Source: Micromussa lordhowensis
Taxonomy: Eukaryota > Cnidaria > Anthozoa > Scleractinia > Lobophylliidae
Length of the DNA: 64,000 bases
Assembly (NCBI GenBank): GCA_964020085.1
Contig: OZ026604.1
Coordinates: forward strand, 8,703,473 to 8,767,472
Reading direction: 5' to 3'
Each line of letters starts with the position of its first letter. Position 1 is the first letter of the stretch. The notes beneath the pieces were generated by a model, which was not told the DNA's origin, did no database searches, and was given only the letters and a program-made list of their open reading frames with translations. Position numbers and translations under genes: made by a program. Below, piece after piece: positions 12,504-53,308 of this stretch.

Positions 12504-12544
<41 letters not shown>

Positions 12545-22035: not shown

Positions 22036-22036
22036 T

Positions 22037-22542: not shown

Positions 22543-25500
22543 CTGGGAAAATTTATTTTGTGTGTACTAATAGCTTACGTATCGGTTTTCTAAATCAAAT
22601 CTGGCTGGAAAATACTTTGAAATGAAATTGCTGTGAAGCGTGCTGACTGAAGCGTGCGACCTTATACTTTTAATCTGGCCGCTCCGGAACTTTCGTTTGG
22701 AAAAAAATGCTTGCAATTAAAAAAACAGGCAGTTTTGGTTATTTATTAAAGTTTTATTTGTCAGCAAACAATAGTTGTCTGTTCCGCTGTCATTTACAGT
22801 GAACTTGTACTTTACCCTCGACGCCCCTTTTTCCCATGGTCAGTTCGTTTAACCGCCCGGCTTAGTTCAGTCGCAGAAAAGCGCCATCGTATCATACGAC
22901 CGGTTATCTGGAAATCTCGAAACGATATTTGGTTTTAGTAGTACGTTTATTCACAGTTTGCTGCTCCGGTCGCCGAAAAGCTTCATCGTATCATACAACT
23001 GGTACGTGTAGTTATTCATATTTGCTGCCGCGGACGCGCAAAAGTGGGATCACTTCAAACGACTGCTTATCTGAAAAAATCTGGAAACGCCGTTATTTGG
23101 TACGTGTAGTTTATTCACATTTTGCTGCTTATAGTAGCCATTTGCTTCTTAAACATTGTTCAGGATTGTTATCCTCATCTATTTTTTTGTGTCTGTCCTA
23201 ATGAAGCGTGGTCAGAGAGAATTTGCGAAACGTTGTTGGAGTGGTTGGCCGTCACAGACATCAGGACTTTGTCGACTTATTCAAAGGTTAAGGTAAGAAT
23301 GGAACTACCTTAAGATCTGAGCTAGGTCGATTAGCCTATATATCTAATATCCAGTGTAAAGTATTTAAGCAACGTGCATGGAAAAGCAGCAAAATTTCTT
23401 TTTTTCAAATTGTATTCATATATCACAGCAGAACTGTATTCTATTTATAAGCTACAAGAAATTACTGTTTCTGAACTTAGAAGAGCTGGGCAGCTATCAT
23501 CCGCGCTAAAAAGTGATGTGATCTTCCGGACGTAGTGTTAATTTTCGCAGTCGGGTTTCGTAGAGATATCCAACGTAATACATTTGTTACCCTTTACCAG
23601 GGGAATTTCTTCCTCCCAAAAAAAACCGCGCTGGTGAGGCGGCAGCGCTTCTTTTTCACCTTTTATTTGTAATTGAATGGAATATAATGTCGTCACTGCT
23701 TTTAAAATCACACTGGAGACATTCAATACAATCACCAGTCGACTTAGGTGGTATTGAGTTTTCATAGATGATGCCTGTTTTCATGCTTTTTTTTGCATTT
23801 CATCACAATCAACAAGCGATTATTTTTTGTAATCTCTTCTTTCTGATTTTTTTCTCGAAGTAACAAACAATTGTTCTCGTTCAGTCTGTTTATTTACTGT
23901 ATTGGCTGGTCGTGTTCTTTCGAACGGGGGCTGATTTCAGTTTACGGCCTTCTGGCTGAAAAAAATTATATATTTGTTGACCAACACACCACTTTGACAG
24001 ATTTGAAATCCGGTGTGGCGCTAGTTCAAGAAGAAAGCAATGCATATGTTGCTCCATGCTTCTCACTGTACTTTGCGATTTTCATGCATCAGATACATAT
24101 GCGTCAGTTACATCAGGGTGTGTCTTGCTATTTTAGGACCAGAAAGCAACTCATGCATGTTATTCCAGATTTCAGTCGTTTCGAGACCTAGGTCATATTC
24201 CTCATTTACAGTGGCTGCTACGTATTGGCTTAAATAGGACTTACGCGTCCGCAGTAGGCAAATTATACATTTTTTCGGCTCCACCAAAAATGAAGAAAAA
24301 TCTTGTTTTCATAAACTCCATGACACATTTGTTAACCACAAGTGTCAATTACAGAAGAAATTGAACACGTTTTTTTCGCTTGAAAGACAATGGTCCTGCT
24401 CTTCGGCCGAGTTTAAATTAGGTTATTGTTGATAAGGCCGTAAAAGACTTAAGTAAAAAATATAACTATAAAAAATCACCGTCCGCTCTTGTGTGAGGTA
24501 GATATTGTTCATGGCAAATATCAATGGTTTGGACTTTGGAAAACGCAACGTGATTGTCACCTCTTAAGTCATTTACTTAGATAAAGGGACTTTTTTCGGA
24601 CTTTCAGATGTGACCGCCGCCGCTAAACTTTAAAATATAACTTCGCTTAAGGAACCATTTGACAAAATTTGTTTGCCCCAAACACATTTGCCAATTTACT
24701 CTTTTGTCATTGCAAATCTGGTAAAAGGATCCGCATTTTAAAATTCCCAACCATAAAATGGCATTACATGCGTTGTTAACACCTTGTGTTCCCGGCCAGT
24801 TCCCGGCGCTTGACAAAAAGATTTCCTGTCTCGAGAAAGGACCACGGCGCGTTTGAAGTTTGTTACGCCTTGACAAAATTTGGCACGCAACTTGTTGAAC
24901 GGAACTGATGTCCGATGTCAACAAAATTGTCCTAGTGCGTCTGGCGCAATAAGTACAGGTTTAAATTAAACGCTGTTCTCGGGTGAATAGTGAATAATAA
25001 CGACAAAAAAATAAATCTAACGTCTCAGTTGGGAGGAAGTTGCTTACTCTCACAAGCTTAAGCAGAAGTTGGACCTCCCACCGATAGTTCTTTTGGTTGC
25101 TGGAACAAATAGAAGGCACATAATCTTAAGTTCCCTTGCCAGTTTGGAAGAAAGCGTTGTGTCTGTTCTGTATTTATCGTAGTTTGAATTTCTGAACCAT
25201 TTCATATTTTGGCATACTCTGGAAAAGCATAGGAAAAAACGAAACCGCAAAAAAATGGCAAGTTTTTGAAACTGGGAGTCGCACTTATTTTGCGCTACTT
25301 GTCGACAGATTTATTACTTGGCTCTAGTGCGACCCGGGCCAAAATCACCAAAAGTAATGCTTTTCTTTACTTTTCTGACGCCCTGACAAACCAAACAGCA
25401 AAACATATCGCGAATTAGCTATAGAGAGGTGTCGAATTCTACTATGTTGAAATTTATGACTTCTCAACGGTACTATTATAGCACGCAAATTCACACGCAC

Positions 25501-27341
25501 GTCAGGGATCGAGCGTGCGCTAAGTTAGTTTAAGTAAGTTGAACAATGATAAGGCAGATGATTGTCTCTAGTGCTACGCGGGCCAAAATCACCAAATTTA
25601 ATGCTTTTCTTTACTGCAAGCGATTTCTCCGATAAACAATACCCGACTAGTTTAAAAAAAAAAACATCGCATTATTTTGCTAAGTTTTCGTGCTTTTATT
25701 CGTAGCTTGAAGTAGAAATAAAGCAATGTATGTTTCATATCATTTAATTACAATACCCTAAAGTTTTGGCCTGTTCATTCAAAGGGTGGCACCAGATAAA
25801 TTCAGAAGAAGTTTTCGTAGGTCGGTAACGCGAATTTTTATTTGAATACGCCGCTAATCCCCAAGGTACTAATCTGTGGTGTGACAGATTCGTGTAATCT
25901 CTAAGTTCCATTACGTTATCAGTCCGGCGGAAAACGTGATCATTTAGACCTTTGGAAGGAGAAAGAATATTGAGTTTTAGAATGCAACTTTAGGTCTTAT
26001 ATTAAAGAGAAAACGAGCGATTTATAATCTTTTGCAATTGAAATGAGCCCCGACAAACCAAACAGCAAAACATATCGCAAATTAGAGAGGTGTCAAATTC
26101 TACTATGTAAAAATTTATTTGCGGAAACTTGGACCTTGGACCATGCACGTCATGGATCGTGCGCGCGCTAAGTAAGTTGAACAATGATAAGGCAGATGGC
26201 CATTGTTTGGCCTTTGCCTGTATTTGACGATCTTGGACCGTCGAATTCCATTCTCTTTAGCTCTTGGTTTATCTGTGTGGCATATTCTAAGGCCTTTGGA
26301 AGAGTTACGTTTGGTGAAATCGCTGGCAACAAAATATTACTAGGATAGTTTGTCTCCGTTGATTTATCTCTGATTTTTTAAGCGAAAATCCGGAGACCAT
26401 GCTGATTTCCGTGCGCCAATTTTTCAAATTCGAGGTAGTTTTTCCACACGCTTTATCTCTGAAACAAAATCGGTGACTGCTATTTTTGTTTTTCTTTTTT
26501 CATTTCTAAAACAAGTAATTCATGATCTGTTCTCAGTAGGAGTTTGAAGATGTTCTATCGAGTATAACATTTTCGCGCGACCCTCCTTAGTAGTACTCTT
26601 TATATGAATACAACATTTTGCGCCCCTCGGAAATAAGTGAAAAACGAGAGATGTCGGGGAGGTCATGACACCGTGACACCATAACGATTTCCTGTCAAGC
26701 GTGCTGGAAGTTGCCAGGACAAGCGTGAGTTCGGATTTGGTTGCGGCAGGATTCGCTTAACTTCAATTTATGGGGTCATTTATATGCGGAAAGCGAATTT
26801 TCCCTCCAAAATATGGTTGAAATAGCAAATAGAGTTGAGTTATGATACAATATTATCGGCTCAAGGAGCATATCTACTAATTGAAAGCTGATAAAAATTA
26901 AGACAAATAAATGCAAAGCCAACCGGCAATGAATTCACAGTGTGAATTGAGAGCGGAAACAATTTCATTCATAATCGATAGTGTTCACCTTTCGCTTTCG
27001 CGTCTTGTTCTTTTACTTTGGTGAACTTGGTCAACTGTGAGCTCATTTTCCTTTCAGCACGGCTTGTCTCGATTTCGACCGCAAGCGAGGATTCCTCTTT
27101 AAATCGACATACCGCAAGGTCTATTATTTTTAACCATTTAGTATCAGTCATATCTAAAGATATATCACGAAAAGCTTTCACAAATGAGACGCTTGAGAAA
27201 ACAGTCTTTGAATGAGATCATAGATTGTGTTGTTCTACTCGATGAAGTAGTGTCACCAATCCAATTTTGTAATATACGCATGGGGGCGGGGGGAAGGCGT
27301 TAAAGAGGAATTGTACAGTACGTCACCCTTTCTACAGGCGT
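22543..27341. other. transposon 5' region without a recognised gene
   Basis: AT-rich with scattered open frames of up to 106 codons (for example 23,871-24,191 plus and 24,604-24,924 minus), none recognised. The minus-strand frame 27,181-26,969 has a plausible helical, Lys/Glu-rich composition and ends near an aaag/gtgaac donor, so it might be an exon, but no partner exon is evident. Direct repeats at 25.3-26.2 kb are listed separately. Confidence 0.4.
25322..26200 (+). repeat. interleaved direct repeats
   Basis: A ~50-bp block containing gggccaaaatcaccaaa occurs at 25,322 and 25,567. A longer block with gacaaaccaaacagcaaaac, gagaggtgtc and aacaatgataaggcagatg occurs at about 25,383-25,560 and again at about 26,050-26,200 with small differences. 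Confidence 0.7.
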
Positions 27342-27801
27342 GTCTAGACCTTTACACAAATATCCGGATATTTTTTGAGATATTCAGAAGTTTCCCAAGA
27401 TATTTAGAAAATTTTGAGATATTTAGGCAAATTTATAGCTTTTTAGCTATTTCCCAGCTGTAATCCAGTTCAGCGGTTTCCCACTTGAATAATGTATTCC
27501 ACTGGCAGCCATTTGCCAAAATTGCGGATGCATCCATGCTGTTTTGAAATTAAAGTTTTTTTATTGCAATACGACTAGTGTAGACAATCTCTGACGCACT
27601 ATTCAGCTCCCGTTAGGGAAAAGTTTGGCCTAAAAGGTACAACATTGGCTTACTTTTAAACCAGAAGTAAGAGATATCCCAAGATATTTGGACGATTTGT
27701 CGAGATATTTAGAAAAACTTTTGGGATAGACTTTTTTCTTTGAGAATTTCCGAAAGATAGTTATAGGCGATTTTACGTGATATTTGTGTGAAGGTCTAGA
27801 C
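27342..27801. mobile_element. small inverted-repeat element (~460 bp)
   Basis: The left end gtctagacctttacacaaat and the reverse complement of the right end (gtctagaccttcacacaaat) match over 23 bp with one mismatch. No target duplication is clear. The interior is rich in gatattt repeats and encodes nothing, so it is probably a MITE nested in the larger transposon. Confidence 0.55.
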
Positions 27802-28139
27802 GTGTCATTTTTCTGATTTAGAAAGTAGAGTGAAGTATGAGAAGCACAGCTGAAGATCCAGCAAACGTTATCCGATATCATGGACTGGTACTCAAGAGGA
27901 GATGAGTAATGTTCAGAATATTTTTGATGCAACATCGAGTTAAAGTTTGTGCAGCTTTTCGGATCCTCAACGGGTTATTAAGCATTTTAAATGTTTACCT
28001 CTGGTTAACCAATAGCCAGACAGAGAAAGGTTCTTCATTGCCATACCTAGCAATAGGCTTTTGGTGCGAAATTGTGTTTAGAACTTTGTGGGCCTTAAAC
28101 ACAAATGGGTATTGTTGTGAGCTAAATTATGTGAAACCT

Positions 28140-29735
28140 TAACGGTGAACAGCCTTTAACATCCCCACAATGGGTCTTTGCTGCGAAACTTTGCACTTAA
28201 CTGTGTGAAACTTTTACCGTGAATGATCTTTAACCTCCCCCCAATGGGTCTTTGCTGCGAAACTTTGCACTTAACTGTGTGAAACTTTTACGGTGAATGA
28301 TCTTTAACCTCCCCCCAATGGGTCTTTGCTGCGAAACTTTGCACTTAACTGTGTGAAACTTTTACGGTGAATGATCTTTAACATCCCCACGATGGGTCTT
28401 TGCTGCGAAACTTTGCACTTAACTGTGTGAAACTTTTACGGTGAATGATCTTTAACCTCCCCCCAATGGGTCTTTGCTGCGAAACTTTGCACTTAACTGT
28501 GTGAAACTTTTACGGTGAATGACCTTAAACCTCCCCCAATGGGTCTTTGCTGCGAAACTTTGCACTTAACTGTGTGAAACTTTTACGGTGAATGACCTTA
28601 AACCTTCCCCCAATGGGTCTTTGCTGCGAAACTTTGCACTTTACTGTGTGAAACTTTTACGGTGAATGACCTTAAACCTTCCCCCAATGGGTCTTTGCTG
28701 CAAAACTTTGCACTTAACTGTGTGAAACTTTTACGGTGAATGACCTTAAACCTCCCCCAATGGGTCTTTGCTGCGAAACTTTGCACTTAACTGTGTGAAA
28801 CTTTTACGGTGAATGATCTTTAACCTCCCCCCAATGGGTCTTTGCTGCGAAACTTTGCACTTAACTGTGTGAAACTTTTACGGTGAATGACCTTAAACCT
28901 CCCCCAATGGGTCTTTGCTGCGAAACTTTGCACTTAACTGTGTGAAACTTTTACGGTGAATGATCTTTAACATCCCCCCAATGGGTCTTTGCTGTGAAAC
29001 TTTGCACTTAACTGTGTGAAACTTTTACGGTGAATGACCTTAAACCTTCCCCCAATGGGTCTTTGCTGCGAAACTTAACACTTAACTGTGTGAAACGTTT
29101 ACGGTGAATGACCTTAAACCTCCCCCCAATGGGTCTTTGCTGTGAAACTTTGCACTTAACTGTGTGAAACTTTTACGGTGAATGACCTTAAACCTTCCCC
29201 CAATGGGTCTTTGCTGCGAAACTTTGCACTTAACTGTGTGAAACTTTTACGGTGAATGACCTTAAACCTCCTCCAATGGGTCTTTGCTGCGAAACTTTGC
29301 ACTTAACTGTGTGAAACTTTTACGGTGAATGATCTTAAACCTCCCCCCAATGGGTCTTTGCTGTGAAACTTTGCACTTAACTGTGTGAAACTTTTACGGT
29401 GAATGACCTTAAACCTTCCCCCAATGGGTCTTTGCTGCGAAACTTTGCACTTAACTGTGTGAAACCTTTACGGTTAATGACCTTAAACCTTCCCCCAATG
29501 GGTCTTTGCTGCGAAACTTTGCACTTAACTGTGTGAAACGTTTACGGTGAATGATCTTTAACATCCCCACGATGGGTCTTTGCTGCGAAACTTTGCACTT
29601 AACTGTGTGAAACGTTTACGGTGAATGATCTTTGACATCCCCACAATGGGTCTTTGTTGTGAAACGTTGGACTTAACTGTGTGAAATTTTTACGGTGAAC
29701 GGTCTTTAACCCTCCCACAATGCGTTTTCACTGTG
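28140..29735 (+). repeat. 74-bp satellite array (~21 copies)
   Basis: The unit includes aatgggtctttgctgcgaaa, ctttgcacttaactgtgtga and tacggtgaatgatctt. Copies are very similar and differ mainly in a C-run (accttcccccaa / acctccccccaa) and cgaa/tgaa. Outer copies at both edges are more diverged. It ends about 170 bp before the transposase ATG, so it could act as an upstream regulatory or binding array. The open frame on the minus strand through it is a repeat artefact. Confidence 0.95.
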
Positions 29736-29902
29736 AGCAGCCTTTAACATAAAGATGGGTCTTTTCCGTTTTTTGGAACTTTGCAACTAGCTTTGAGTTA
29801 CCTTTTAATTTTGAACTACCTCTTAAAACAATATTGACCTGGTGCGTTTAACTTATGAAATTTTTATTGACAGCTCTTCCCCGGGTCGGCCTTGAATAAG
29901 CC

Positions 29903-32900
29903 ATGGATCAGCAGGAAAGGATCAGCAACATTTCAAAGTATGTGGCATGAAGAGTATTCTAAATTTGACAGTAGGTTTAATTTTGTTTGCACTTATTACA
30001 CTCTTTCATCTCGAATTGCAGGAAGGGAAAAAAGGAGGCCAGCCGTCCAAAGAGAAAGAGAAAAAGGACTAACACTACTTTTGAGGTAAACGCATTGTTA
30101 GGGACCGATTTGGATATAAATGAGATGACAAACGTAGAGATGATTTCCAGTCCGTGCTGTGCACTCTCTAGGGTTTGTTTGCGTTTTTTTTACTCTCTTG
30201 AATTAACTTTTAAAGGTTCAAATCAACCACCATTGCGGATGCAAAGCGGTCCAAGTTTTATGCTGCGTTCTTTCTCGTATCACTTGATAAAACAACTCCG
30301 CAGCTGTAGAAATCAATGGAGCTGCTGCAAAAAGAATTTGAAAGGCCTGAAAGTTAGGGTATGTGGTTTGTAACGAATAACACCGATTCGCATTCCATCG
30401 AGTTTTATAAATGTTTACAAACATTAGGGTGCTGGGACTGCACAGTAACGGACTGGAAATCAACTTTATGTCTAACTTTATTATAAAAAACATTCAATTT
30501 ATTTTCAGTTCACCTTTTTCGCAGCGCAGTTTCGTTTGCTCGCACACCGTATAAAGTAGTCTACACATACATACATTTTTTTTTTATTTTATTGAGACTC
30601 CCTTCAAAAGGGCTTTAAAAGGTCACAATAATACTGGTAATTAAGAAAACTTATGTACATTAAGTTATTTAATTTCAAAATGTATTCAAAATTATTTAAA
30701 ATATATCCAAAATTTACGAGTCCTCAAATGATATTCAAAAGTGACTGTCCTCGTCACCTTGATATTTTAGGGTTATATAGTAGTGACATTGTTTCAAACA
30801 TTTCTTCGGTGAAAGCAACTTTCATTCGAATGTCCAGAGGGACCTTACACATAAGCGTGTTTTCGTTTCACAGAATTTTCGCCCTCTCGCACGTTATCTT
30901 ATTGCCTTTCTCTCCCATTATGCTAGATGTCAGATGTGGAACGCTGGTTAACGACTCTCGTGACCGAGGTGGATGATGCTGAAGCCACCATTGAAAAAGA
31001 GTCGCTGTGTGAGAGTTTTTTTGCTTTTATGGAAATCAATTCAGAGGTGGGAAGAGATCAGTTTTTCTCTTTACTAGGTAATGCACTTATAAGGGTGGGT
31101 TACAACAAAGTAAAACCAGTGTTAAAAAAAGGGCGCCGCGTAGCATTCACAGGGATGACACTCAAAAGAGACTGTATTCGCCCTTCAGTATCTGAAAAGA
31201 AGAAAACAGCCATTTCTGCCCATACCCTTCAGGAGTGGATGATGCTTAATTACTGTGAGGGCGGTCCAAGTGAAACCATAATAGCTGAAGATTTGTGGTT
31301 GCATTTTAGTGAAAACTCTAACATTCAGGAAGACCAGAAATCAGTTTTTTTCTCGTTGCTTGGCAATGTATTTAAGAATCCACCCTTCTTAAAAGTTCGA
31401 CGGCAGTTGACGCGAAGTGACAAGGGAGGAAAGATAAGCACTTTCCAGAACCTCCAGGTGAACCAACGGATTAACACCTCTGACAATGTTGATGAAGGTC
31501 AAATTCCTGGCTCCTCCGAAAAGGAAGGAAAAAATCTTATCCAAGATTTGGATCACCAAATAAAATCGTGCCACAACAATGCCATAGCAAGTTTGCTCGA
31601 CCCATCAATGCCAAGAATACAGATGGAAAACCCCACTAATGAACGGAATTCTGCCAGTAATTCAATTGACGTAGAGGTGGGCAGTGTCGACGACATCCCT
31701 GACATTCAGTCTCCAAACTGTAACGCTCTGGACTTCAAGGCAGAAAAAGATCTCGAAAAAGAAAAACATTCAGTCGTAGTGGAAGATATTGACAATTATG
31801 TGGAACAGGACGAAAAAGTCGGTAAAGAAGGTGAAAAAGAAGAATTTGAGACGTCTTTGGAAGAAGAACCTTCTGATAGCGACCAGAGTGAAAGTGACAT
31901 AGGTGAATCGGCTGACGCCTCAAGCACTCCACTGTGCAATCACGAGGAATCATCTTCAAGTGATGCCCTTTTCCACAAGTATCATAAAAAGATCAATAAT
32001 CTACTACCCTGCCATCTTCCTGGAGGACCAACATCTTTCCAGTCGTATCTGAGGTCTGTCTTCCCCGATCCGTCAAACTTTAGTGTGGAAAGACAGCACA
32101 TCCACTCATTGTCTGCCAGCACATCCATATACAAAGATGCCCGAATCAGAGCTTTCGTTAGTGCTTGTTTTCCCCCCATAAAAGTTGGAAGCTTTCCTGG
32201 GGAGTGTAACGGCTTCACGTTTACTGGTGACGTGTTTCCCCAGTTTTCACAAGTGGATAAGAGCTACTTCAGTTGTGAAATTTGTATCCCATATTGCAAG
32301 TGGGCTATTCTCAACAACCATCCGTATCCTTCCACAAGATCCAAACAAGCATCCGTTGATGCAGTCCTTGCTGGCACAGCGAAACTCGTCTTCTCAGGTG
32401 TGGTGCAGATGCATGAGCATAGCTTGTCAAAATGTCATGTCGAAGCAGCCAGCTTCTGGAGCAAGGAAAGAGTTCCAGTGGCGACGGTAAGTCCCCCGGT
32501 GGGGAAAGATGAGGGAAGAAAGGAGAAGCGTATTTATGATTATTTTGGCAAGGCAGGGGATCCTTTAAACTAGCAAGGACCTCAGAATCTCAACCACGAA
32601 GACCAAAACAGCACAAAGTGAGATGTTGCTACCTTTGGGATTCTGAGGTCGTTAAAGAATTTGCGCAGGACGGTCAAATACGAAGAACGACTCCTAAGAA
32701 GCTCTTCAAAGAACGTTTGGAGAATGGCTCAATTGCTTGTTTTAAACGTATCCCTGGGCACGAAACGTGTTCAACCTACAAAGGCTGGAAGAATATGCAT
32801 GTCGTGGATGCCACAGCTATCAAAGAAGAAGCCTCCTCTAAGGCAAGGTCAATGTATATAGCTCTTTCGCAAGAGGTCTTAGTTAACGGCAAGGCTATTC

Positions 32901-35900
32901 GCATAAAAGGTGGAATCAAGAGTTTACAACCACCTTGCAAAGAAGAAGCATTATCTTCCGGGAAGCATCCGTACACTTGCGAGAATTGTTTCCTCCAGTT
33001 ACGTGAGTTACAGGATACAATTCGGCATCGGAAGTCTGGTAGCTTAGACGGGAAGTTGAACCGACTTGGACTTCGCGGGTTTAACAAACGTTACGCGAGG
33101 AACGACGAAGCAATCGATTCTTTAGAAATCGAAACCCAGCGGCGTAGAATTGCTGAAGCGAGAGTGAAGCAGATGGTTAAAGTTACATTGACGCAAAAAG
33201 ATTGGGAAGAAAGGCTACATGATTCATGCATGAATGGTGAGGATCAAAAGCTTGTAATAGATCTTGTTCGCTTGTTAAAAATGGATATATCGCAAAGTAA
33301 TCCAATCCAGTTGATGGTCATTCGAAATTTGGTCTCCAAGCTAAAGAAAGCTAATAATCATCATTACGTTGACTTGGTGAAAGACATTAGCGGTCTTTTT
33401 AAGAACGAACTCGGGCCGACTAATTATTCATTGCTAGCTGAAATCTTTGGTTTGGCCAGAGAAACCACTGCTGCAAAACATTCCATTCAATTAAGGTTAG
33501 ATCCTGGCTTGAATTTGGATTCCATCGATCAAGCAGCCCTCACCTTCAAAGGCCTACCCGTTAATGAAGCTAGTGACGGCGCTCGATGTCTTCGTTACCT
33601 TGAACCTCGAAAGCAAAAGGACGGAGAAGTAGTGCTTGTAGGGCATGTGTGGAATCCGGACGTAAGCACTTGGCACGATCAGAACATTCGTATTCCTCGA
33701 AGGGACTCCAAGCAACACGATCGAGACGATTTTGAGGCATTGAAAAGACTCACAGACAAGTTAATCAAAGATGAAAAATTGGCTAAGACTGTTTCAGTTC
33801 ACAATCTTACCCCCCTAGCTTCTATGGAGACGTCTACCGTTATAAATTGTATGTGGCCATGTCCGGATCGCGGGTACACAGCAAAGCATCTTTTAAAGTA
33901 TTGGGAGGCTCTCAGAAAAGCTTGCTATTACGACAGTTCCGGAGCTGTTCGTAAAATACCGTTGAATTTGGTCGGTTATTCTACAGATTCTGCAGGGTTC
34001 TCTTTAGCGGCTGCAATTCAGCTGATGACACCAACAGAAGAGGAGATCACAGAAGGGGTCCTCTATCTTGGTCTCGGCATTGACGAAGAACAGTTCGTTT
34101 CGCCCTACTACTGGTACTTACCATCCATAGCCTACTTAGACTACGATCACGAACAGAGACTATTTTTGAAAAATCTCAAATACGAAACTCGAGATTTGAC
34201 CCTCTGGGAAGAAAACGGCAAGACCACAATTCTAGCAACCATAAAGCATCTTCAAGATCTCAAGCATCGATGCCAAGATTTAGGACTGGATTGTGGATTC
34301 AACGCCACCGACTTGCTTCTGATATATTTTTGTGATCAGAATTCGGACGCCTGTCAAAGAATTTTCACCACCCGCATTGCTGATCTTCTTGACAAATACG
34401 TTCCAGGATCACGTGGAACGAGTCTGTACATAAGAGCTGTGTACCGTTTGATAGAACCCTTTCGCACACCAAACTTTGGCTCACCAGAAGACGTGCAGAA
34501 GTCTGTTTCCTGTGGCATAACCATCTTTCGGTTGTGGAGAAAGGTACTTGAACTAAAGCAGATGCTTCTCCATTCCAAGCCTAATGCCAGAATCGATCCC
34601 ACAAAACGCGGAAAATTTGTTACATATGGCTGTTACAAGACCGCCGAGATCCTTTTTGCAGCAGCCACGGTTCATCAACTGGCAATGTTTTTGCATTTCA
34701 AGGACCTTGGACCATCATGGGCGTCTCCTTTCAATTCAGGGACGAAATCTACAGAGCGCATCATTGGAGAAATGCAAGGAAAAACCATAGAGTTGCAATC
34801 CCTTGATGCTCAACCAACCTTTCGCAACATGCTAGACAGAAGTTCCAAAGTGCAGTTCAATCAAAATGCAAAACAGCGTCTCGCTGCGTCCGGAGCTAAT
34901 GTCAAGGCATCAAACAAAAGGAAGAAGATTGCTTTTGCTTTCCAAGAAAACAAGCATGTTGGCAACTATGTCTATCCTGCTGTATACTCCGAATTTAAGG
35001 AGGCACAAGTGAAAGCGCACAGAGAAGGAGTTAAAGAGGGTCAAGTGCTTTTTGCGAAATACCTGCCTCAAGCGTGTGTGGACTTGCTTAAGGAAACAGC
35101 AAATTGGGATAAACCATATTCTTACAGCAAGCCAAAGAACTACACTGTGGTAGACGGACCTCCTTCCAACGATTTCAACAAGTTGGACACCTCATTTGCC
35201 AAAGTGTCCATCCCAGACTTGGAGTCTAAATGTTGTGATGAATCTGATGAGGTACAGACGACAAGAGAAGAGGTTGAAATTGGATGTGGCGACAATGACA
35301 GTAGACCCATTGATTCAGTGGATGAAGATGACGAGAACTTAAAGGGGGGTAAGAACTGGAAGATAAGCAAATACGTCGACGGAAAGTTGACCTACATTCA
35401 CGTCTCCCAAGCCATAAAAATTCTTTTGCCAAGAGAGTATGTGTCGAGATGTCGACAGAAGAGGCACTGGGCGTCCAAGTACCTGCCTGGAAAAGAGCCC
35501 TTAAATCCTACTCACGACATCTTTAAATATTGTGATGTTGCTATGATGGTTACACAGAAAGGCAAACGTTTGTACCATATTGGACGAGTTGAAGCTATGG
35601 AATCCACCAAAGATGGCTCAGAGGTCACGAGCTTTGAGTTGAAAAGAAAGACACCAGTGCGTATTCGGTGCTCACTGTATTCCTGCCTTGAGCGTGACCT
35701 ATATTGTGTCCCAGAGGATCCACTGCTTACAAACTGGAAGTCCCAAGCAAGCATCATAACCAAAGTAGAGCTGCAACCTGTTTCCGGGGAGAGTACAATG
35801 TACACGCTTCATCCTAAATCCAAAGCACATCTCGTAAAGTTAGGAATTTTTCCCTTTATTGACCTCCATGATAACTCGCCCAATTCGTCTCCATCTTCGG

Positions 35901-37855
35901 TTAAAGACGATTCGCAAGGTTGCTCCAGCCCTGAGATCGACGATGACTTCTATGAAGTCGAAGACGTACTCGAAAGGCGCTTGTCTAAGGATTCACTCTG
36001 CTATGAGTACAAGGTTCGATTTAAGGGCTATGGATCAGATCAAGACATGTGGCTGCCATCTTCTTTCTTTAACAGAGCGTTTCAATTTGAATCGACTTCC
36101 AAGTTTGGCAGAAAACGCAAACACAACCTAGATCCAGAGAATGTGCCCGAGGACAAAAACCAGAGACGAAAGCGTCGCAGGAATAGCAAGTCTGAAGTTA
36201 ATCGATCATTGTCTGGTGGCGCAGACCTGAAGAAAGGTGTCGATTCTGAAAGTAAAAATAGGACGAAAGTGGAGAATGTCGACCCGCGACGCTCTAAAAG
36301 AAGGGATTCAATGAATATGTCAGAAACCCAAGACCTAAAGAAAGCAAGCTCTGAAGTTAAAATACCAGTCTCTGGTAACACGGGCATGAAGAGTGATACT
36401 GAATGCAAAAGTGGGAAGCGGAAGAAGTCAGTGAGTGTTGACTCGAGAAGTTCTAAAAGCACGGCAGCATTATCACAGCAGAGTAAGAATCAGGTGCCAA
36501 AAAAGAAGGCTAAGAAAAAGGGAACAGGGCCAAAGGACAAGGGAAAAGCGTTTCGATCCTCGTTACATACATCGACGAAGGGCGATGATGTATCAGGGAC
36601 ATCAGAACCGTCATGGTCCTATTCAATGACATCGAAAGAAAAGAAAGAGAAGAACACTGGTCAGAATAAAAAATCAGTGACGAAAGAGTTTGAACGTTTG
36701 CCAGACATCCAGTTAATTGGAAAAATGAGAGGTTCATCTGTCGAAGTGATTAACGTGGACGATTTTTCTCTCGACAAAGAAGCTTCTCTGGGGACAAGGG
36801 GGATTGTGGATGATCTAATGGGTCGCGACGACAACTTCAAGTACCCACGACGAATTCTGGGCGAGACAACATTTCCGGAGGTTGATGATACGTTAAGAAC
36901 CTATGAAAAAGAGAACAGCACTGACTGCACTCTGACCGACCCTCTTGGAGTAGAGAAACTGCCACCTCTTTCCATCATTCATGAAATGGAGGGAGAATTT
37001 AAAAAGAAATCCGACCTGGTGGTCAAGTTTTCACTCTATGGAAATTTCGATAGAGAAGGATTTCGGATTTTGAGACGGTTTCATCAACTGAAAGGGCTTC
37101 GTAAAGAGGTCCAGTTTGAGAAGAAGTGGCTTCAGAGTACTTTTTCAGCAATGGATCCAAAGTTACAAGAGGAAGTGACGCATGCACTTTTGGACAGATG
37201 GAACACAGAAGGAAGCTATCTCGCGACATATGGCAATTATCGGATAACATCTCAAGAACTGTCCCTTTTGTGTGGTGAAAGGTACTTATCTGATGAAATA
37301 CTGAATTTCTTGGTTGAAAAGTACTGCGACAAGTCTAATCAAGAAAAACAAGTGGAACAAAACATTCTTCTTCCCTCCTTTCTTTCAACGGGTGATGTTT
37401 TAAGGAACGTGGTGGAACGTATATGTTTACGGAAGGACATGGGACTTGTCACCAACATGTTTTTGCCGGTGCACATGAATATGTGCCACTGGGGTCTCGC
37501 TGTTTTCTCCGTAGTAGAACAGACAGTCTTTTTTGACGATGGTTACCATTGCCCCATACCAAGCAACCTCAAGTCCAATGCTGTGAAAATACTCAACATC
37601 ATCTACGAATGCACTGGTTCTGACAAATACAAACCGTCAAATTGGACTGACATCAAGAGATTCGTTGTTCAAATGCCTGATCAGCCAGAAGACACCACAC
37701 GTTCAACGAATGGGTTTGGTAGTTGTGGCGTTGCCGTAATTTGTTCCGTGCGGGATATTTGCAATGACAGTACTGTAGGATTGACCTGGAGTTATCATGA
37801 TTCACCACGTTTGCGCGCCGAGCTAATGATGGATGTACTTGATATTCTCCACTAA
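29903..37855 (+). CDS. transposase-like giant protein with chromodomain and Ulp1 protease, ~2,300 aa
   Basis: Four coding exons fit with matching phases: 29903-29937, 30022-30085, 30927-32486 and 32612-37855. The donors are gtatgt, gtaaac and gtaagt; the acceptors are ttgcag, tatgctag and aaacag. The N-terminus is basic (RPKRKRKR, a likely NLS). Residues ~58-113 and ~133-208 are two similar FFSLLGN repeats resembling RFX/D5-type winged helices. An acidic linker follows. A DDE-like core is suggested by STDSAGFS (D1012), DYDHEQRL (D1063/D1065) and STERIIGE (E1268). A chromodomain lies at ~1667-1713 with cage residues Y, F, Y. A Lys/Ser-rich stretch precedes a C48/Ulp1 protease (H2179 in MCHWG, D2195, C2258 in GSCGVAV). 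The usual oxyanion Gln six residues before Cys is absent; Gln occurs further upstream. Protease and chromodomain are clear; the transposase role is inferred. Confidence 0.7.
32487..32611 (+). other. predicted 125-nt intron in the transposase-like gene
   Basis: The donor gcgacg/gtaagt at 32487 ends exon 3 in phase 0, and ccaaaacag/cac at 32612 reopens in the frame of the long downstream exon. Without splicing the protein stops at 32573, and the downstream frame has no ATG near its start. A tcag at 32585 is a nearer acceptor but would break the frame. Confidence 0.55.
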
Positions 37856-37934
37856 GTCACCGTCGATTAAAAGACGCCCATATCAAATTCCCTGCACACA
37901 TACAAACAGTGCTCTGAATGAACGTGATGCATTA

Positions 37935-40310
37935 AACGTAGTTCATGGTCAGTCCCCAATATCTTCCTAAATATCTAGCAATTGATTTCTTCATCATCGT
38001 TAAATAATTGTTATGAAGATCGTCCAATGACTGTGCCCATCCTAAAAATTGATATCTTCATCGTTGTTAAATCTTCATTATCAAGATCGTCCAATTACTG
38101 TAACCCATCCTAAAAATTGATCTCTTCATCATGAGCATCGTTAAATAATTGTTACCAAGATCTTCCAATGACTATACCTTTCTTGGCAATTGATCTCTTC
38201 ACCATCTTTAAATCTTCATGATAAAAAGCGTCCAACGATTGCGTCCTTCCTGGCAATTTATCTCTTCATCAAAGTTCAATCTATTACCAAGATAGTCCAA
38301 TGACGGTTTTTTTCCTAGAACCTGATGTCTTCATCATCCATAAGTCTTCATTATCAAGATCGTCCAGTGACTCTGCCTTTCCTGGAAAATGATCTCTTCA
38401 TCATCGTTAATTTTTCATTAGCAAGATCATTCGTGGACGGACAGTCGTTCCTGGCAACTGATCTCTTCATCGTTAAATCTTCATCATCAAGAACGTCCAG
38501 TGACAGTGACGATCCTGGCAATTATCTCTTCGTCATCTTAAAATAATAAAGTTCAAGATTGTCCAATGATTGTGTCTCTCCTGGCAATTGATCTCCTCAT
38601 CAACTTTATATCTTAATTATCAATGTCGTCCAATGACTGTGCGTTTCCTGGCATTTAGTACTTTATACCCTTTTGAGTGCATTACCTAGATCCACCTTGG
38701 TTTACTTAAGAGTTAAAAATTGGAAACGGCACTGAAATGCCACTGTCCAGTTTCTTCATCATCGTTAGATGTTCATTATCAAGATCGTCCAATGACTGTC
38801 TTTCCTGGCCAGTAATGTCTTAATCATCGTTAATGATTATTATCAAGATCATCCAGTGACTGTGCTCCTCCTGACCATTGATATCTTCGTCATCTTTACG
38901 TGATTATTATAAGGAGCGTCCAATGACTTTGTCTTTCCTGGCAACTAATGTCTTTATCATCGTTAATGATTATTATCAAGATCGTCCAGTGACTGTGCCC
39001 CTCCTGGCCATTGATCTCTTCGTCATCTTTACGTGATTATTATGAAGATCGTCCAATGACTGTGTCTTTCCTGGCAATTGATGGCTTTATCATCTTAAAA
39101 TCCTCATTATCAAGATCGTCCAATTACTATAACCCGTCCTAAAAATTGATCTCTTCATCATGAGCATCGTTAAATGATTATTACCAAGATCTTCCAATGA
39201 CTATACCTTTCTTGGCAATTGATCTCTTCACCATCTTTAAATCTTCATGATAAAAAGCGTCCAACGATTGCGTCCTAGCTGGCAAATTATCTCTTCATCA
39301 AAGTTCAATCTATTACCAAGATAGTCCAATGACGGTTTCTTTCCTAGAACCTGATGTCTTCATCATCCATAAGTCTTCATTATCAAGATCGTCCAGTGAC
39401 TCTGCCTTTCCTGGAAAATGATCTCTTCATCATCGTTAATTTTTCATTAGCAAGATCATTCGTGGACGGACTGTCGTTCCTGGCAACTGATCTCTTCATC
39501 GTTAAATCTTCATTATCAAGAACGTCCAGTGACAGTGACGATCCTGGCAATTATCTCTTCGTCATCTTAAAATAATAATAATGTTCAAGATTGTCCAATG
39601 ATTGTGTCTCTCCTGGCAATTGATCTCCTCATCAACTTTATATCTTAATTATCAATATCGTCCAATGACTGTGCGTTTCCTGGCATTTAGTGCTTTATAC
39701 CTTTTGAGTGCATTACCTAGATCCACCTTGGTTTACTTAAGAGTTAAAAATTGGAAACGGCCCTGAAATGCAACTGTCCAGTTTTTTCATCATCGTTAGA
39801 TGTTCATTATCAAGATCGTCTAATGACTGTGCCTTTCCTGGCAACTGAGCTCTTTATTATCGTCAAATGATTATTATCAAGATCGTCCAATGACTGTCTT
39901 TCCAGGCAACTAATGTCTTTATCATCGTTAATGATTATTATCAAGATCGTCCAGTGACTGTGCTCCTCCTGGCAATTGATCTCTTCGTCATCTTTACGTG
40001 ATTATTATGAAGATCGTCCAATGACTTTGTCTTTCCTGGCAACTAATGTCTTTATCATCGTTAATGATTATTATCAAGATCGTCCAGTGACTGTGCCCCT
40101 CCTGGCCATTGATCTCTTCGTCATCTTTACGTGATTATTATGAAGATCGTCTAATGACTGTGTCTTTCCTGGCAATTGATGGCTTTATCGCCTTAAAATC
40201 TTCAGTAACAAGATCGTCCAATGACTTTGCCGTTTATGGCAATTGATCTATCCGTCATCGTTAAATATTTATTGTCAAGATTGTCTAATAACTGTGTAAT
40301 TCCTGACAAA
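37935..40310 (+). repeat. ~60-68-bp degenerate satellite with ~1.03-kb higher-order repeat
   Basis: Units contain caagatcgtccaatgactgt, cctggcaattgatctcttca and tcatcgttaaat. Units vary, but blocks at 38.1-38.8 kb recur at 39.1-39.8 kb with an offset of about 1,029 bp and few differences, showing a higher-order repeat. Each block ends in an atypical segment gtgcattacctagatccacc. It lies 80 bp after the transposase stop codon. Open frames inside are repeat artefacts. Confidence 0.9.
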
Positions 40311-41152
40311 TGACTGAGTGCATTACCTAGAGCCACCTTAATTTTCTTAAGATGTGAAAATGAAAAAAAAACTGATTAAGGAATACACAGCTGATTATCG
40401 GGCACATGAAATGTCAACAAGCTCATGGTGAATTGAGTAGCTTTGTGTTTGGAAGGACGTTGGGTGTCCTTGGTGACTCTGCAATTGGAGAGTCAAAATA
40501 CATAAACATTTTTCCCCATCAACGTGACAGTGCTTTGTCGTAGCGGTGGGGCTCGTTTGTGCTTAGGAAGTGCAATCGCCAAACTGTCACACAAATGCCC
40601 AACTTTGAGGCAGTCTCAAGACTGGAAGCCGTCCAGAGAAAACGTACAGGAGGAGACCTTGTTTGAACGTAAATGGTAAGTGGGCTTGTTCTACAGTGTT
40701 GAAATAGCATTTAACTCATAATCAAAGTGTAAATTATGCTCATAGCGGCAAAAATTAGAGGTTGAAGACATAGTGATTTATTCCCAAATATAATCAACAG
40801 AGAATTGGCTGTTGATTATTGGTCTAAAAACAATCTGTTTGCTTTTAATGCAACCCAATGCGCTGGCTGGAGCAGCTTTTCGCATGCCAGTGCCTTGCTG
40901 GTATTTTAAACGTTTATCTTAAATGCTGGCTGGGAAATGAGCAAATTGCCATTTTTCTAGCTGGGTATTGAAAATTCTCAGTTTATCTGGCTGGGAGTTT
41001 TATACAAAAAAATCGGTCTTGCTAGCAGTGAAGAGCGGATATTTTTTTCCCAGGAAAGTTAATTATTAACTGTAATTGACGTGGGAACACATTAAGAGTG
41101 CTTGTGGAGTCATATGTTAAATTTCCAGTTTTAGTGTCGTTGGGTACTCCTG
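40311..41152. other. transposon 3' end region
   Basis: No gene recognised. It contains the three phased GCTGGG boxes (40929-40995), agagcggatatt (41032-41043) and the putative terminus GGGTACTCCTG (41142-41152). Confidence 0.5.
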
Positions 41153-41700: not shown

Positions 41701-44700
41701 TGAATTAACTTTTAAAGGTTCAAATCAACCACCATTGCGGATGCAAAGCGGTCCAAGTTTTATGCTGCGTTCTTTCTCGTATCACTTGATAAAACAACTC
41801 CGCAGCTGTAGAAATCAATGGAGCTGCTGCAAAAAGAATTTGAAAGGCCTGAAAGTTAGGGTATGTGGTTTGTAACGAATAACACCGATTCGCATTCCAT
41901 CGAGTTTTATAAATGTTTACAAACATTAGGGTGCTGGGACTGCACAGTAACGGACTGGAAATCAACTTTATGTCTAACTTTATTATAAAAAACATTCAAT
42001 TTATTTTCAGTTCACCTTTTTCGCAGCGCAGTTTCGTTTGCTCGCACACCGTATAAAGTAGTCTACACATACATACATTTTTTTTTTATTTTATTGAGAC
42101 TCCCTTCAAAAGGGCTTTAAAAGGTCACAATAATACTGGTAATTAAGAAAACTTATGTACATTAAGTTATTTAATTTCAAAATGTATTCAAAATTATTTA
42201 AAATATATCCAAAATTTACGAGTCCTCAAATGATATTCAAAAGTGACTGTCCTCGTCACCTTGATATTTTAGGGTTATATAGTAGTGACATTGTTTCAAA
42301 CATTTCTTCGGTGAAAGCAACTTTCATTCGAATGTCCAGAGGGACCTTACACATAAGCGTGTTTTCGTTTCACAGAATTTTCGCCCTCTCGCACGTTATC
42401 TTATTGCCTTTCTCTCCCATTATGCTAGATGTCAGATGTGGAACGCTGGTTAACGACTCTCGTGACCGAGGTGGATGATGCTGAAGCCACCATTGAAAAA
42501 GAGTCGCTGTGTGAGAGTTTTTTTGCTTTTATGGAAATCAATTCAGAGGTGGGAAGAGATCAGTTTTTCTCTTTACTAGGTAATGCACTTATAAGGGTGG
42601 GTTACAACAAAGTAAAACCAGTGTTAAAAAAAGGGCGCCGCGTAGCATTCACAGGGATGACACTCAAAAGAGACTGTATTCGCCCTTCAGTATCTGAAAA
42701 GAAGAAAACAGCCATTTCTGCCCATACCCTTCAGGAGTGGATGATGCTTAATTACTGTGAGGGCGGTCCAAGTGAAACCATAATAGCTGAAGATTTGTGG
42801 TTGCATTTTAGTGAAAACTCTAACATTCAGGAAGACCAGAAATCAGTTTTTTTCTCGTTGCTTGGCAATGTATTTAAGAATCCACCCTTCTTAAAAGTTC
42901 GACGGCAGTTGACGCGAAGTGACAAGGGAGGAAAGATAAGCACTTTCCAGAACCTCCAGGTGAACCAACGGATTAACACCTCTGACAATGTTGATGAAGG
43001 TCAAATTCCTGGCTCCTCCGAAAAGGAAGGAAAAAATCTTATCCAAGATTTGGATCACCAAATAAAATCGTGCCACAACAATGCCATAGCAAGTTTGCTC
43101 GACCCATCAATGCCAAGAATACAGATGGAAAACCCCACTAATGAACGGAATTCTGCCAGTAATTCAATTGACGTAGAGGTGGGCAGTGTCGACGACATCC
43201 CTGACATTCAGTCTCCAAACTGTAACGCTCTGGACTTCAAGGCAGAAAAAGATCTCGAAAAAGAAAAACATTCAGTCGTAGTGGAAGATATTGACAATTA
43301 TGTGGAACAGGACGAAAAAGTCGGTAAAGAAGGTGAAAAAGAAGAATTTGAGACGTCTTTGGAAGAAGAACCTTCTGATAGCGACCAGAGTGAAAGTGAC
43401 ATAGGTGAATCGGCTGACGCCTCAAGCACTCCACTGTGCAATCACGAGGAATCATCTTCAAGTGATGCCCTTTTCCACAAGTATCATAAAAAGATCAATA
43501 ATCTACTACCCTGCCATCTTCCTGGAGGACCAACATCTTTCCAGTCGTATCTGAGGTCTGTCTTCCCCGATCCGTCAAACTTTAGTGTGGAAAGACAGCA
43601 CATCCACTCATTGTCTGCCAGCACATCCATATACAAAGATGCCCGAATCAGAGCTTTCGTTAGTGCTTGTTTTCCCCCCATAAAAGTTGGAAGCTTTCCT
43701 GGGGAGTGTAACGGCTTCACGTTTACTGGTGACGTGTTTCCCCAGTTTTCACAAGTGGATAAGAGCTACTTCAGTTGTGAAATTTGTATCCCATATTGCA
43801 AGTGGGCTATTCTCAACAACCATCCGTATCCTTCCACAAGATCCAAACAAGCATCCGTTGATGCAGTCCTTGCTGGCACAGCGAAACTCGTCTTCTCAGG
43901 TGTGGTGCAGATGCATGAGCATAGCTTGTCAAAATGTCATGTCGAAGCAGCCAGCTTCTGGAGCAAGGAAAGAGTTCCAGTGGCGACGGTAAGTCCCCCG
44001 GTGGGGAAAGATGAGGGAAGAAAGGAGAAGCGTATTTATGATTATTTTGGCAAGGCAGGGGATCCTTTAAACTAGCAAGGACCTCAGAATCTCAACCACG
44101 AAGACCAAAACAGCACAAAGTGAGATGTTGCTACCTTTGGGATTCTGAGGTCGTTAAAGAATTTGCGCAGGACGGTCAAATACGAAGAACGACTCCTAAG
44201 AAGCTCTTCAAAGAACGTTTGGAGAATGGCTCAATTGCTTGTTTTAAACGTATCCCTGGGCACGAAACGTGTTCAACCTACAAAGGCTGGAAGAATATGC
44301 ATGTCGTGGATGCCACAGCTATCAAAGAAGAAGCCTCCTCTAAGGCAAGGTCAATGTATATAGCTCTTTCGCAAGAGGTCTTAGTTAACGGCAAGGCTAT
44401 TCGCATAAAAGGTGGAATCAAGAGTTTACAACCACCTTGCAAAGAAGAAGCATTATCTTCCGGGAAGCATCCGTACACTTGCGAGAATTGTTTCCTCCAG
44501 TTACGTGAGTTACAGGATACAATTCGGCATCGGAAGTCTGGTAGCTTAGACGGGAAGTTGAACCGACTTGGACTTCGCGGGTTTAACAAACGTTACGCGA
44601 GGAACGACGAAGCAATCGATTCTTTAGAAATCGAAACCCAGCGGCGTAGAATTGCTGAAGCGAGAGTGAAGCAGATGGTTAAAGTTACATTGACGCAAAA

Positions 44701-47697
44701 AGATTGGGAAGAAAGGCTACATGATTCATGCATGAATGGTGAGGATCAAAAGCTTGTAATAGATCTTGTTCGCTTGTTAAAAATGGATATATCGCAAAGT
44801 AATCCAATCCAGTTGATGGTCATTCGAAATTTGGTCTCCAAGCTAAAGAAAGCTAATAATCATCATTACGTTGACTTGGTGAAAGACATTAGCGGTCTTT
44901 TTAAGAACGAACTCGGGCCGACTAATTATTCATTGCTAGCTGAAATCTTTGGTTTGGCCAGAGAAACCACTGCTGCAAAACATTCCATTCAATTAAGGTT
45001 AGATCCTGGCTTGAATTTGGATTCCATCGATCAAGCAGCCCTCACCTTCAAAGGCCTACCCGTTAATGAAGCTAGTGACGGCGCTCGATGTCTTCGTTAC
45101 CTTGAACCTCGAAAGCAAAAGGACGGAGAAGTAGTGCTTGTAGGGCATGTGTGGAATCCGGACGTAAGCACTTGGCACGATCAGAACATTCGTATTCCTC
45201 GAAGGGACTCCAAGCAACACGATCGAGACGATTTTGAGGCATTGAAAAGACTCACAGACAAGTTAATCAAAGATGAAAAATTGGCTAAGACTGTTTCAGT
45301 TCACAATCTTACCCCCCTAGCTTCTATGGAGACGTCTACCGTTATAAATTGTATGTGGCCATGTCCGGATCGCGGGTACACAGCAAAGCATCTTTTAAAG
45401 TATTGGGAGGCTCTCAGAAAAGCTTGCTATTACGACAGTTCCGGAGCTGTTCGTAAAATACCGTTGAATTTGGTCGGTTATTCTACAGATTCTGCAGGGT
45501 TCTCTTTAGCGGCTGCAATTCAGCTGATGACACCAACAGAAGAGGAGATCACAGAAGGGGTCCTCTATCTTGGTCTCGGCATTGACGAAGAACAGTTCGT
45601 TTCGCCCTACTACTGGTACTTACCATCCATAGCCTACTTAGACTACGATCACGAACAGAGACTATTTTTGAAAAATCTCAAATACGAAACTCGAGATTTG
45701 ACCCTCTGGGAAGAAAACGGCAAGACCACAATTCTAGCAACCATAAAGCATCTTCAAGATCTCAAGCATCGATGCCAAGATTTAGGACTGGATTGTGGAT
45801 TCAACGCCACCGACTTGCTTCTGATATATTTTTGTGATCAGAATTCGGACGCCTGTCAAAGAATTTTCACCACCCGCATTGCTGATCTTCTTGACAAATA
45901 CGTTCCAGGATCACGTGGAACGAGTCTGTACATAAGAGCTGTGTACCGTTTGATAGAACCCTTTCGCACACCAAACTTTGGCTCACCAGAAGACGTGCAG
46001 AAGTCTGTTTCCTGTGGCATAACCATCTTTCGGTTGTGGAGAAAGGTACTTGAACTAAAGCAGATGCTTCTCCATTCCAAGCCTAATGCCAGAATCGATC
46101 CCACAAAACGCGGAAAATTTGTTACATATGGCTGTTACAAGACCGCCGAGATCCTTTTTGCAGCAGCCACGGTTCATCAACTGGCAATGTTTTTGCATTT
46201 CAAGGACCTTGGACCATCATGGGCGTCTCCTTTCAATTCAGGGACGAAATCTACAGAGCGCATCATTGGAGAAATGCAAGGAAAAACCATAGAGTTGCAA
46301 TCCCTTGATGCTCAACCAACCTTTCGCAACATGCTAGACAGAAGTTCCAAAGTGCAGTTCAATCAAAATGCAAAACAGCGTCTCGCTGCGTCCGGAGCTA
46401 ATGTCAAGGCATCAAACAAAAGGAAGAAGATTGCTTTTGCTTTCCAAGAAAACAAGCATGTTGGCAACTATGTCTATCCTGCTGTATACTCCGAATTTAA
46501 GGAGGCACAAGTGAAAGCGCACAGAGAAGGAGTTAAAGAGGGTCAAGTGCTTTTTGCGAAATACCTGCCTCAAGCGTGTGTGGACTTGCTTAAGGAAACA
46601 GCAAATTGGGATAAACCATATTCTTACAGCAAGCCAAAGAACTACACTGTGGTAGACGGACCTCCTTCCAACGATTTCAACAAGTTGGACACCTCATTTG
46701 CCAAAGTGTCCATCCCAGACTTGGAGTCTAAATGTTGTGATGAATCTGATGAGGTACAGACGACAAGAGAAGAGGTTGAAATTGGATGTGGCGACAATGA
46801 CAGTAGACCCATTGATTCAGTGGATGAAGATGACGAGAACTTAAAGGGGGGTAAGAACTGGAAGATAAGCAAATACGTCGACGGAAAGTTGACCTACATT
46901 CACGTCTCCCAAGCCATAAAAATTCTTTTGCCAAGAGAGTATGTGTCGAGATGTCGACAGAAGAGGCACTGGGCGTCCAAGTACCTGCCTGGAAAAGAGC
47001 CCTTAAATCCTACTCACGACATCTTTAAATATTGTGATGTTGCTATGATGGTTACACAGAAAGGCAAACGTTTGTACCATATTGGACGAGTTGAAGCTAT
47101 GGAATCCACCAAAGATGGCTCAGAGGTCACGAGCTTTGAGTTGAAAAGAAAGACACCAGTGCGTATTCGGTGCTCACTGTATTCCTGCCTTGAGCGTGAC
47201 CTATATTGTGTCCCAGAGGATCCACTGCTTACAAACTGGAAGTCCCAAGCAAGCATCATAACCAAAGTAGAGCTGCAACCTGTTTCCGGGGAGAGTACAA
47301 TGTACACGCTTCATCCTAAATCCAAAGCACATCTCGTAAAGTTAGGAATTTTTCCCTTTATTGACCTCCATGATAACTCGCCCAATTCGTCTCCATCTTC
47401 GGTTAAAGACGATTCGCAAGGTTGCTCCAGCCCTGAGATCGACGATGACTTCTATGAAGTCGAAGACGTACTCGAAAGGCGCTTGTCTAAGGATTCACTC
47501 TGCTATGAGTACAAGGTTCGATTTAAGGGCTATGGATCAGATCAAGACATGTGGCTGCCATCTTCTTTCTTTAACAGAGCGTTTCAATTTGAATCGACTT
47601 CCAAGTTTGGCAGAAAACGCAAACACAACCTAGATCCAGAGAATGTGCCCGAGGACAAAAACCAGAGACGAAAGCGTCGCAGGAATAGCAAGTCTGA
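41701..47697 (+). mobile_element. second, truncated copy of the large transposon (5,997 bp)
   Basis: Matches 30,199-36,195 at a constant offset of 11,502 with no difference seen, including introns. It begins at the gap and stops at agtctga, where copy 1 continues agttaatcg and this copy continues into gag (gcagcaag). Both truncations lie within the transposase gene unit. Confidence 0.9.
42429..47697 (+). pseudogene. truncated transposase-like gene fused to antisense-phase gag codons
   Basis: Carries the equivalents of exon 3 (42429-43988), the intron 43989-44113 and the first part of exon 4 through the chromodomain (about 47,450-47,590). It then loses the basic tail and the whole Ulp1 protease. 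The open frame runs on past the junction for about 41 codons to a TAA before 47,822, but these are gag bases in the wrong frame. The first two coding exons would fall in the gap. Confidence 0.85.

Positions 47698-53267: not shown

Positions 53268-53308
<41 letters not shown>

Follow-up and report, generated by a model that had tools for sequence, protein, structure and literature searches.

A 64,000-nucleotide stretch of contig OZ026604.1 from the scleractinian Micromussa lordhowensis (hereafter the window, in whose positions all coordinates are given) carries an 18.7-kb DNA transposon with two long open reading frames, ORF1 and ORF2, by which all residues are numbered. The best explanation, to which we assign a probability of about 85%, is that this is a recently active transposon whose P-like transposase is produced as an ORF1-ORF2 fusion by -1 ribosomal frameshifting. 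A first-pass annotation made from the sequence letters had proposed, at 29903-37855, a transposase-like protein of about 2,300 residues combining winged-helix-like repeats, a DDE-like core, a chromodomain and a Ulp1 protease. This observation is partly confirmed and its interpretation is supported. It is not attributable to chance, because the core has 46 relatives among database proteins at E≤1e-3, the ORF2 protein has at least 42 matches in its own genome (several being pieces of one copy), and near-identical copies of the element occur on two other contigs.

The element, its ends and its copies

Searches of the own genome covered 580.8 Mb in 1383 contigs, with the best candidates only being scored. 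The limits of the element are set by comparison with copies on contigs C4 (18,735 bp) and C1 (18,734 bp), whose homology with the window runs in both cases from 22421 to 41152/41153:

22421..41152, plus strand: complete DNA transposon, 18,732 bp
22421..22435, plus strand: left terminal inverted repeat CAGGAGTACCCATCG, 14 of its 15 bases pairing with the right end
41138..41152, minus strand: right terminal inverted repeat, reading CAGGAGTACCCAACG in that orientation and pairing with the left end
28130..29728, no strand: tandem array of a 74-bp repeat (about 21 units), upstream of the gene, also in the C4 and C1 copies
37978..40309, no strand: 67-bp tandem repeat arrays in three blocks downstream of the gene, also in the C4 and C1 copies

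Identity to these two copies is 99.81-99.96% per piece, and the window differs from C4 by 14 substitutions and 5 gap positions over four pieces that jointly span the element. The 15-bp termini are of the CAGGAG...CTCCTG type (end sequence CAGGAGTACCCANCG), both are shared by the C4 and C1 copies, and in these two of the three copies the same ends are bordered by 6-bp target duplications (ACTCAG/ACTCAG in C4 and AGATCT/AGATCT in C1). Taken together, these sequence features point to a cut-and-paste transposon with recent activity. The gene is thus enclosed by inverted ends, in keeping with its earlier placement inside an apparent transposon, but the element extends far beyond 29903-37855. Damage is also seen among the copies: ORF2 is broken near residue 485 in the C1 copy, and stop codons occur in many own-genome paralogs. 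Between 22507 and 30926 there is no stop-to-stop frame of 250 amino acids (aa) or more, the longest wholly inside being 130 aa (29981-30373). No frame reaches 120 aa in the approximately 5.6 kb that precede the tandem arrays inside the element (22507-28100).

The junction of ORF1 and ORF2

30927..32573, plus strand: ORF1, 548 aa, with 16 database relatives
32540..37855, plus strand: ORF2, 1771 aa, in the -1 frame relative to ORF1; as a -1 product it would be entered at 32570
32564..32570, plus strand: -1 slippery heptamer T TTA AAC in the ORF1 frame, also present in divergent paralogs
32571..32573, plus strand: ORF1 stop codon TAG in the sequence, adjoining the heptamer
32578..32593, plus strand: 5' arm of a stem, 7 nt past the heptamer, identified by its fold (z -2.30) and by covariation
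32635..32650, plus strand: 3' arm of the stem, giving 16 continuous pairs and a 41-nt loop

The length given in the first-pass annotation holds, the expected fusion amounting to 548 + 1761 = 2309 aa, but its single frame does not, and neither does its start at 29903: an in-frame TAG directly precedes the ORF1 ATG at 30927, and five ORF1 relatives (P0048, P0049, P0052, P0054 and P0055) begin with MSDVERW, as ORF1 does. At its 3' end ORF1 reads ...GAT CCT TTA AAC TAG, which presents a heptamer of the X_XXY_YYZ form in the 0 frame with the downstream frame at -1. A frameshift stem or pseudoknot usually lies about 5-9 nt downstream of such a heptamer. Only 1 of 200 shuffles folds as well as the downstream sequence, and of 678 segments sampled at 10-nt intervals over both ORFs (starts 30927-37697), none is as stable as the 80-nt segment from 32577.

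This arrangement is conserved among paralogs whose flanking domains are about 40-60% identical at the protein level. TTTAAAC directly follows the conserved ORF1 tail, 7 nt ahead of GACCTC, in L007, L008, L016, L011, L020, L024 and L046; in L007, L008, L016, L011 and L024 its distance from the downstream reference codon of ORF2 is 42 or 45 nt, and in L046, which aligns without length difference, the -1 frame enters ORF2. Every one of the 11 aligned rows has a 7-nt spacer between the heptamer and (G/A)ACCTC, and in L001, L011, L020, L024 and L046 the heptamer is followed at once by a stop codon. Among the 16 ORF1 relatives, eight end exactly in LN-stop (P0048, P0049, P0050, P0053, P0056, P0057, P0059 and P0061); of the remainder, P0058, P0055 and P0051 continue beyond LN, P0054 is shifted, P0052, P0060 and P0062 end earlier and P0063 is fused. 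The stem statistics, computed over the 11 rows for a 14-pair stem (154 cells) with 500 shuffles and slid-structure controls, give pairing in 92.9% of cells as against 19.5-55.8% for slid structures, a covariation score of 0.290 as against 0.129 in shuffles, and 14 cells changed on both sides as against 4.7; neither of the latter two values was reached in any shuffle, and the statistics are similar without L046. Further, the pattern TTTAAAC-N7-GACCTC-N50-80-GAGGTC has 14 matches in the genome, all of them copies or paralogs of the element's gene by locus overlap or translation (six of the window type), as against none for the backward pattern. With N30-60 there are two matches, namely L012 and a chance site, L038.

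Several observations weigh against the reading of a recently mobile element expressed by frameshifting. In L020 the heptamer stands at 47 nt and a 5-nt loop insertion breaks the frame; L005 and L006 carry TTCAAAC with an earlier ORF1 stop; L008 has a break in the ORF1 frame; and in L005-L008 and L016 the heptamer position is followed by TGG instead of a stop. These same five loci are close relatives among the 11 stem rows, which leaves few independent events, and two of the stem measures are unexceptional, the four pairs changed on both sides being matched by 89 of 500 shuffles and the nine pair types by 365. Frameshifting is also not universal in the family: ORF1 and ORF2 stand in one frame in P0013, P0014, P0015, P0017, P0063 and locus L012, and P0032, P0033, P0034, P0036 and P0037 match both ORFs in one protein, some of which may be spliced gene models. 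Finally, the window copy lacks a matching target duplication (flanks GATTAA and ATTCTA). When inverted ends were sought inside the window (22000-30900 against 37856-41500), the pair 22421/41152 shared the highest score of 12 with three others and for this reason did not stand out; it was recognised only by comparison of copies.

Three other explanations may be set against frameshifting in a mobile element. A small intron, such as 32487-32611, could join ORF1 to ORF2, and the window copy does offer a GTAAGT donor at 32487 with a CAG acceptor that would define a frame-restoring intron of 125 nt, as L046 likewise permits. However, a scan of the eight heptamer loci for GTRAG donors with a frame-restoring acceptor finds them in two (L001 and L046) and in none of L007, L008, L016, L011, L020 and L024, and coding conservation runs through to the stop after PLN, within the supposed intron. 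Moreover, splicing would leave the conserved heptamer, the fixed spacer and the covarying stem unexplained; a conserved intron was rejected on the count of two loci in eight, and we regard this account as improbable. Somewhat less probable still is decay, whereby the split copies would descend from a fused gene through a one-base indel. This could draw on the frequency of stop codons among paralogs and on the existence of fused relatives (P0013-P0015, P0017, P0063 and L012), the last of which retains TTTAAAC and much of the stem, including the outer part, despite its single frame. Against this, the split is common to the divergent paralogs, together with the heptamer, the spacer and compensatory stem changes, on which grounds decay was rejected. 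The dispersed copies of the window element are, besides, 99.8-99.96% identical per piece, and the split form has therefore been transposing recently.

We give similarly little credence to the idea that the large protein serves the host, as a domesticated or accessory protein, and that some other factor moves the element. The 5' 8.5 kb of the element are indeed largely unexplained, and the scan for a second transposase was confined to the frames of the window; but the gene lies between the inverted ends in each of the three full copies, its core has the predicted fold and signature of a P transposase (see below), and, ORF1 and ORF2 apart, no stop-to-stop frame that reaches 150 aa overlaps 27000-42000. 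Frameshifting within a mobile element hence remains the account that we favor.

Domains of the two reading frames and a proposed mechanism

30927..31166, plus strand: predicted winged helix 1 (ORF1 residues 1-80)
31215..31460, plus strand: predicted winged helix 2, RFX-like (ORF1 residues 97-178)
32274..32438, plus strand: putative C2H2-type zinc site C450, C453, H498, H504 (ORF1), each at least 90% conserved in the ORF1 alignment
32523..32546, plus strand: degenerate PCNA-box-like motif E-K-R-I-Y-D-Y-F, with a predicted short helix at 536-539
33527..34909, plus strand: P-transposase-like catalytic core by predicted fold (ORF2 residues ~330-790)
33575..33577, plus strand: candidate catalytic D346 (strand 340-349), 36/36 rows, 11 gaps
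33986..33988, plus strand: candidate catalytic D483 (end of strand 476-482), 43/43 rows, 4 gaps
34139..34150, plus strand: D(2)H motif D534-x2-H537, 44/44 and 44/44 rows, 3 gaps
34754..34756, plus strand: candidate catalytic E739 (helix 736-745), 46/47 rows, one Q
35945..36073, plus strand: chromodomain (ORF2 residues 1136-1178), PF00385 E 4e-6, CDYL2 E 5.3e-7
37154..37816, plus strand: Ulp1/SENP-type cysteine protease by sequence (ORF2 residues 1539-1759), triad H1650, D1667, C1729

Residue conservation was read from a family alignment of up to 47 rows, with fractions given over the rows bearing a letter. Pfam was searched at E≤1 with ORF1 and ORF2, four long relatives and 17 ORF1 rows. At this threshold ORF1 has only one insignificant match (Phage_pRha, E 0.16). 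In the predicted models, ORF1 contains two domains of winged-helix topology, which agrees with the repeats described earlier, followed by a low-complexity linker, the zinc site and a C-terminal motif like the PCNA-interacting-protein (PIP) box. At the same place a canonical box of the QQSIxKFF or QxxIxxFF type is present in P0013, P0014, P0015, P0017, P0032 and P0063. Strict-pattern matches of the PCNA-box scan to QLAMFLHF, in a helix inside the core, and to one site in P0054 were counted as chance.

In the published descriptions, the catalytic signature of the P superfamily is D...D...[C/D](2)H...E, with the first D on beta1, the second at beta4 and the E on an alpha helix (PMC8230255, PMC4168063). 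The predicted ORF2 core has the P-transposase fold, and D346, D483, D534-x2-H537 and E739 are near-invariant at positions that fit the modeled secondary structure. The DDE-like core thus finds backing in structure prediction, and on these models it would work like a P transposase. The P superfamily (Drosophila P element, Galileo and 1360; THAP9) is the system that the element resembles in core fold and signature.

The chromodomain and the protease anticipated by the first-pass annotation are both recovered. With the family profile, solved structures of CDYL-type chromodomains are matched at 2.2e-8 and SENP1-type proteases at 2.3e-23, and the window C-terminus alone matches yeast Ulp1 at E 1.7e-7. 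The residues which we take to form the aromatic cage of the chromodomain are Y1138, F1161 (W in CDYL2) and Y1164, with Y in 37/47, F in 44/47 and Y in 39/47 rows. The His-Asp-Cys triad of Ulp1/SENP proteases (C48) is conserved (H1650 in 28/28, D1667 in 25/26 and C1729 in 34/34 rows), making this a candidate protease by sequence. What is presumably the oxyanion position, as placed from Ulp1, is T1723 in the window and Q in 11/33 rows, and protease activity is therefore only putative.

Two other parts of ORF2 are conserved. Residues 935-1110 (35342-35869), in the interval between core and chromodomain, are strongly conserved without a Pfam match, with H954, E966, R972 and R975 invariant. In residues 67-150 (32738-32989), C67, H74, C77, H87, C147 and C150 are unchanged and C133 is kept in 31/32 rows, a pattern that suggests another zinc site ahead of the core.

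We propose that one transcript would bear both ORFs and that most ribosomes would end after ORF1, yielding a DNA-binding protein of 548 aa with two winged helices, a zinc site and a PCNA-box-like tail. Some ribosomes, stalled by the stem, would slip by -1 on U_UUA_AAC and make the 2309-aa fusion, whose P-element-like DDE core might excise the element at its 15-bp inverted ends and reinsert it through a 6-bp staggered cut. The chromodomain probably steers or tethers the fusion to methylated histones, and the Ulp1-type protease probably acts at the donor or target to free chromatin or repair proteins of SUMO-like tags. The production of two proteins is inferred by analogy with bacterial insertion sequence (IS) elements. 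More broadly, we think it likely that this is a cnidarian superfamily of giant P-related transposons, in which the rate of -1 frameshifting would set the ratio of a stand-alone end-binding regulator to the 2309-aa fusion, which bears a chromatin reader and a SUMO-type protease, with the addition of a PCNA box in fused relatives. If the frameshift is true, a eukaryotic cut-and-paste transposon doses its transposase as bacterial IS elements and retroviruses do. Additionally, a protein that joins a histone reader and a SUMO-type protease to a P-like core would make it possible to test directly if host chromatin is chosen or disarmed by DNA transposons, and the recent copies, two with readable 6-bp duplications, offer a tractable system.

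Relatives, known systems and surroundings

The search for core relatives used ORF2 residues 330-830 as query and scored the 7992 candidates sharing most words; a later family-profile (A2) search of proteins scored 7995 chosen in the same manner and returned 41 proteins. The few core relatives that carry an organism name are cnidarian (Oculina patagonica and Clytia hemisphaerica, with Desmophyllum pertusum from the A2 search). The sole named non-cnidarian match of the A2 search is a weak one, to a Besnoitia protease-domain protein (E 1.1e-4), and P elements and THAP9 are absent among the matches listed. No relatives were found in searches of viral contigs and prokaryote genome contigs. From its named relatives, the transposon family is most likely cnidarian, in accord with the mention of anthozoans in the first-pass annotation. 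L037 (C2:40309992) is another fused one-frame relative, and L012, with its vestige of slippery site and stem, could help to order gain and loss of frameshifting on a tree.

Outside its core, the element has features that set it apart from the P superfamily: 15-bp ends, a length of 18.7 kb, added winged helices, a chromodomain, a protease and a -1 frameshift signal. No Pfam P-type model matches the window protein and no THAP domain is found in any of the sequences searched against Pfam at E≤1. The target duplication of the P element is 8 bp. For Galileo it is 7-8 bp (PMC4168063), whereas both readable copies here have 6 bp. The element is not classed as a P-superfamily member, because no THAP domain is found in it and its duplication is not of 7-8 bp.

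IS3EU elements share the 6-bp duplication and have termini TAYGG..CCRTA, with terminal inverted repeats of more than 30 bp in fungal families (PMC12730594). The element differs from them in its 15-bp CAGGAG...CTCCTG ends, for which IS3EU was rejected, and in a core closest to P transposase. Ulp1-type proteases are known in KDZ (Kyakuja/Dileera/Zisupton) and some MULE elements; the core of the element was compared by alignment with P transposase. Frameshifting by -1 at X_XXY_YYZ sites is used by bacterial IS1 and IS3 family elements, where it joins a DNA-binding ORF to a catalytic ORF, and by retroviruses and coronaviruses, whereas the element described here is eukaryotic, a DNA transposon whose transposase is P-like. 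To our knowledge, transposase production by -1 frameshifting is confined to bacterial IS elements, retroelements and viruses. A search of open-access literature, including PMC12730594, PMC4455052, PMC8230255 and PMC4168063, and with subscription papers, preprints and Repbase outside its scope, yielded no eukaryotic DNA transposon with a -1 frameshift. Within the same bounds it yielded no P-like transposase with chromodomain and Ulp1 protease, in line with the earlier view that this architecture belongs to no named superfamily.

The surroundings of the element include a further piece of it:

41701..47697, plus strand: partial second copy, 100% identical to 30199-36195 (5,997 bp), starting at an assembly gap

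A 200-N gap at 41501 precedes this copy, which is joined directly to a gypsy fragment and is probably an assembly duplication or local rearrangement. The left flank of the window copy is a gypsy gag frame (21937-22420), whose likely continuation is at 47698, past the gap and the truncated copy. A Gypsy-type retrotransposon occupies 21937-22420 and 47698-51660, with the start of gag to the left of the transposon and the remaining gag-pol and a probable long terminal repeat to its right; the insertion site of the transposon seems to lie in this gag gene. Flanking these nested elements, 11186-21876 and 51938-63971 form a direct duplication of about 10 kb, with pieces 94.6-98.5% identical.

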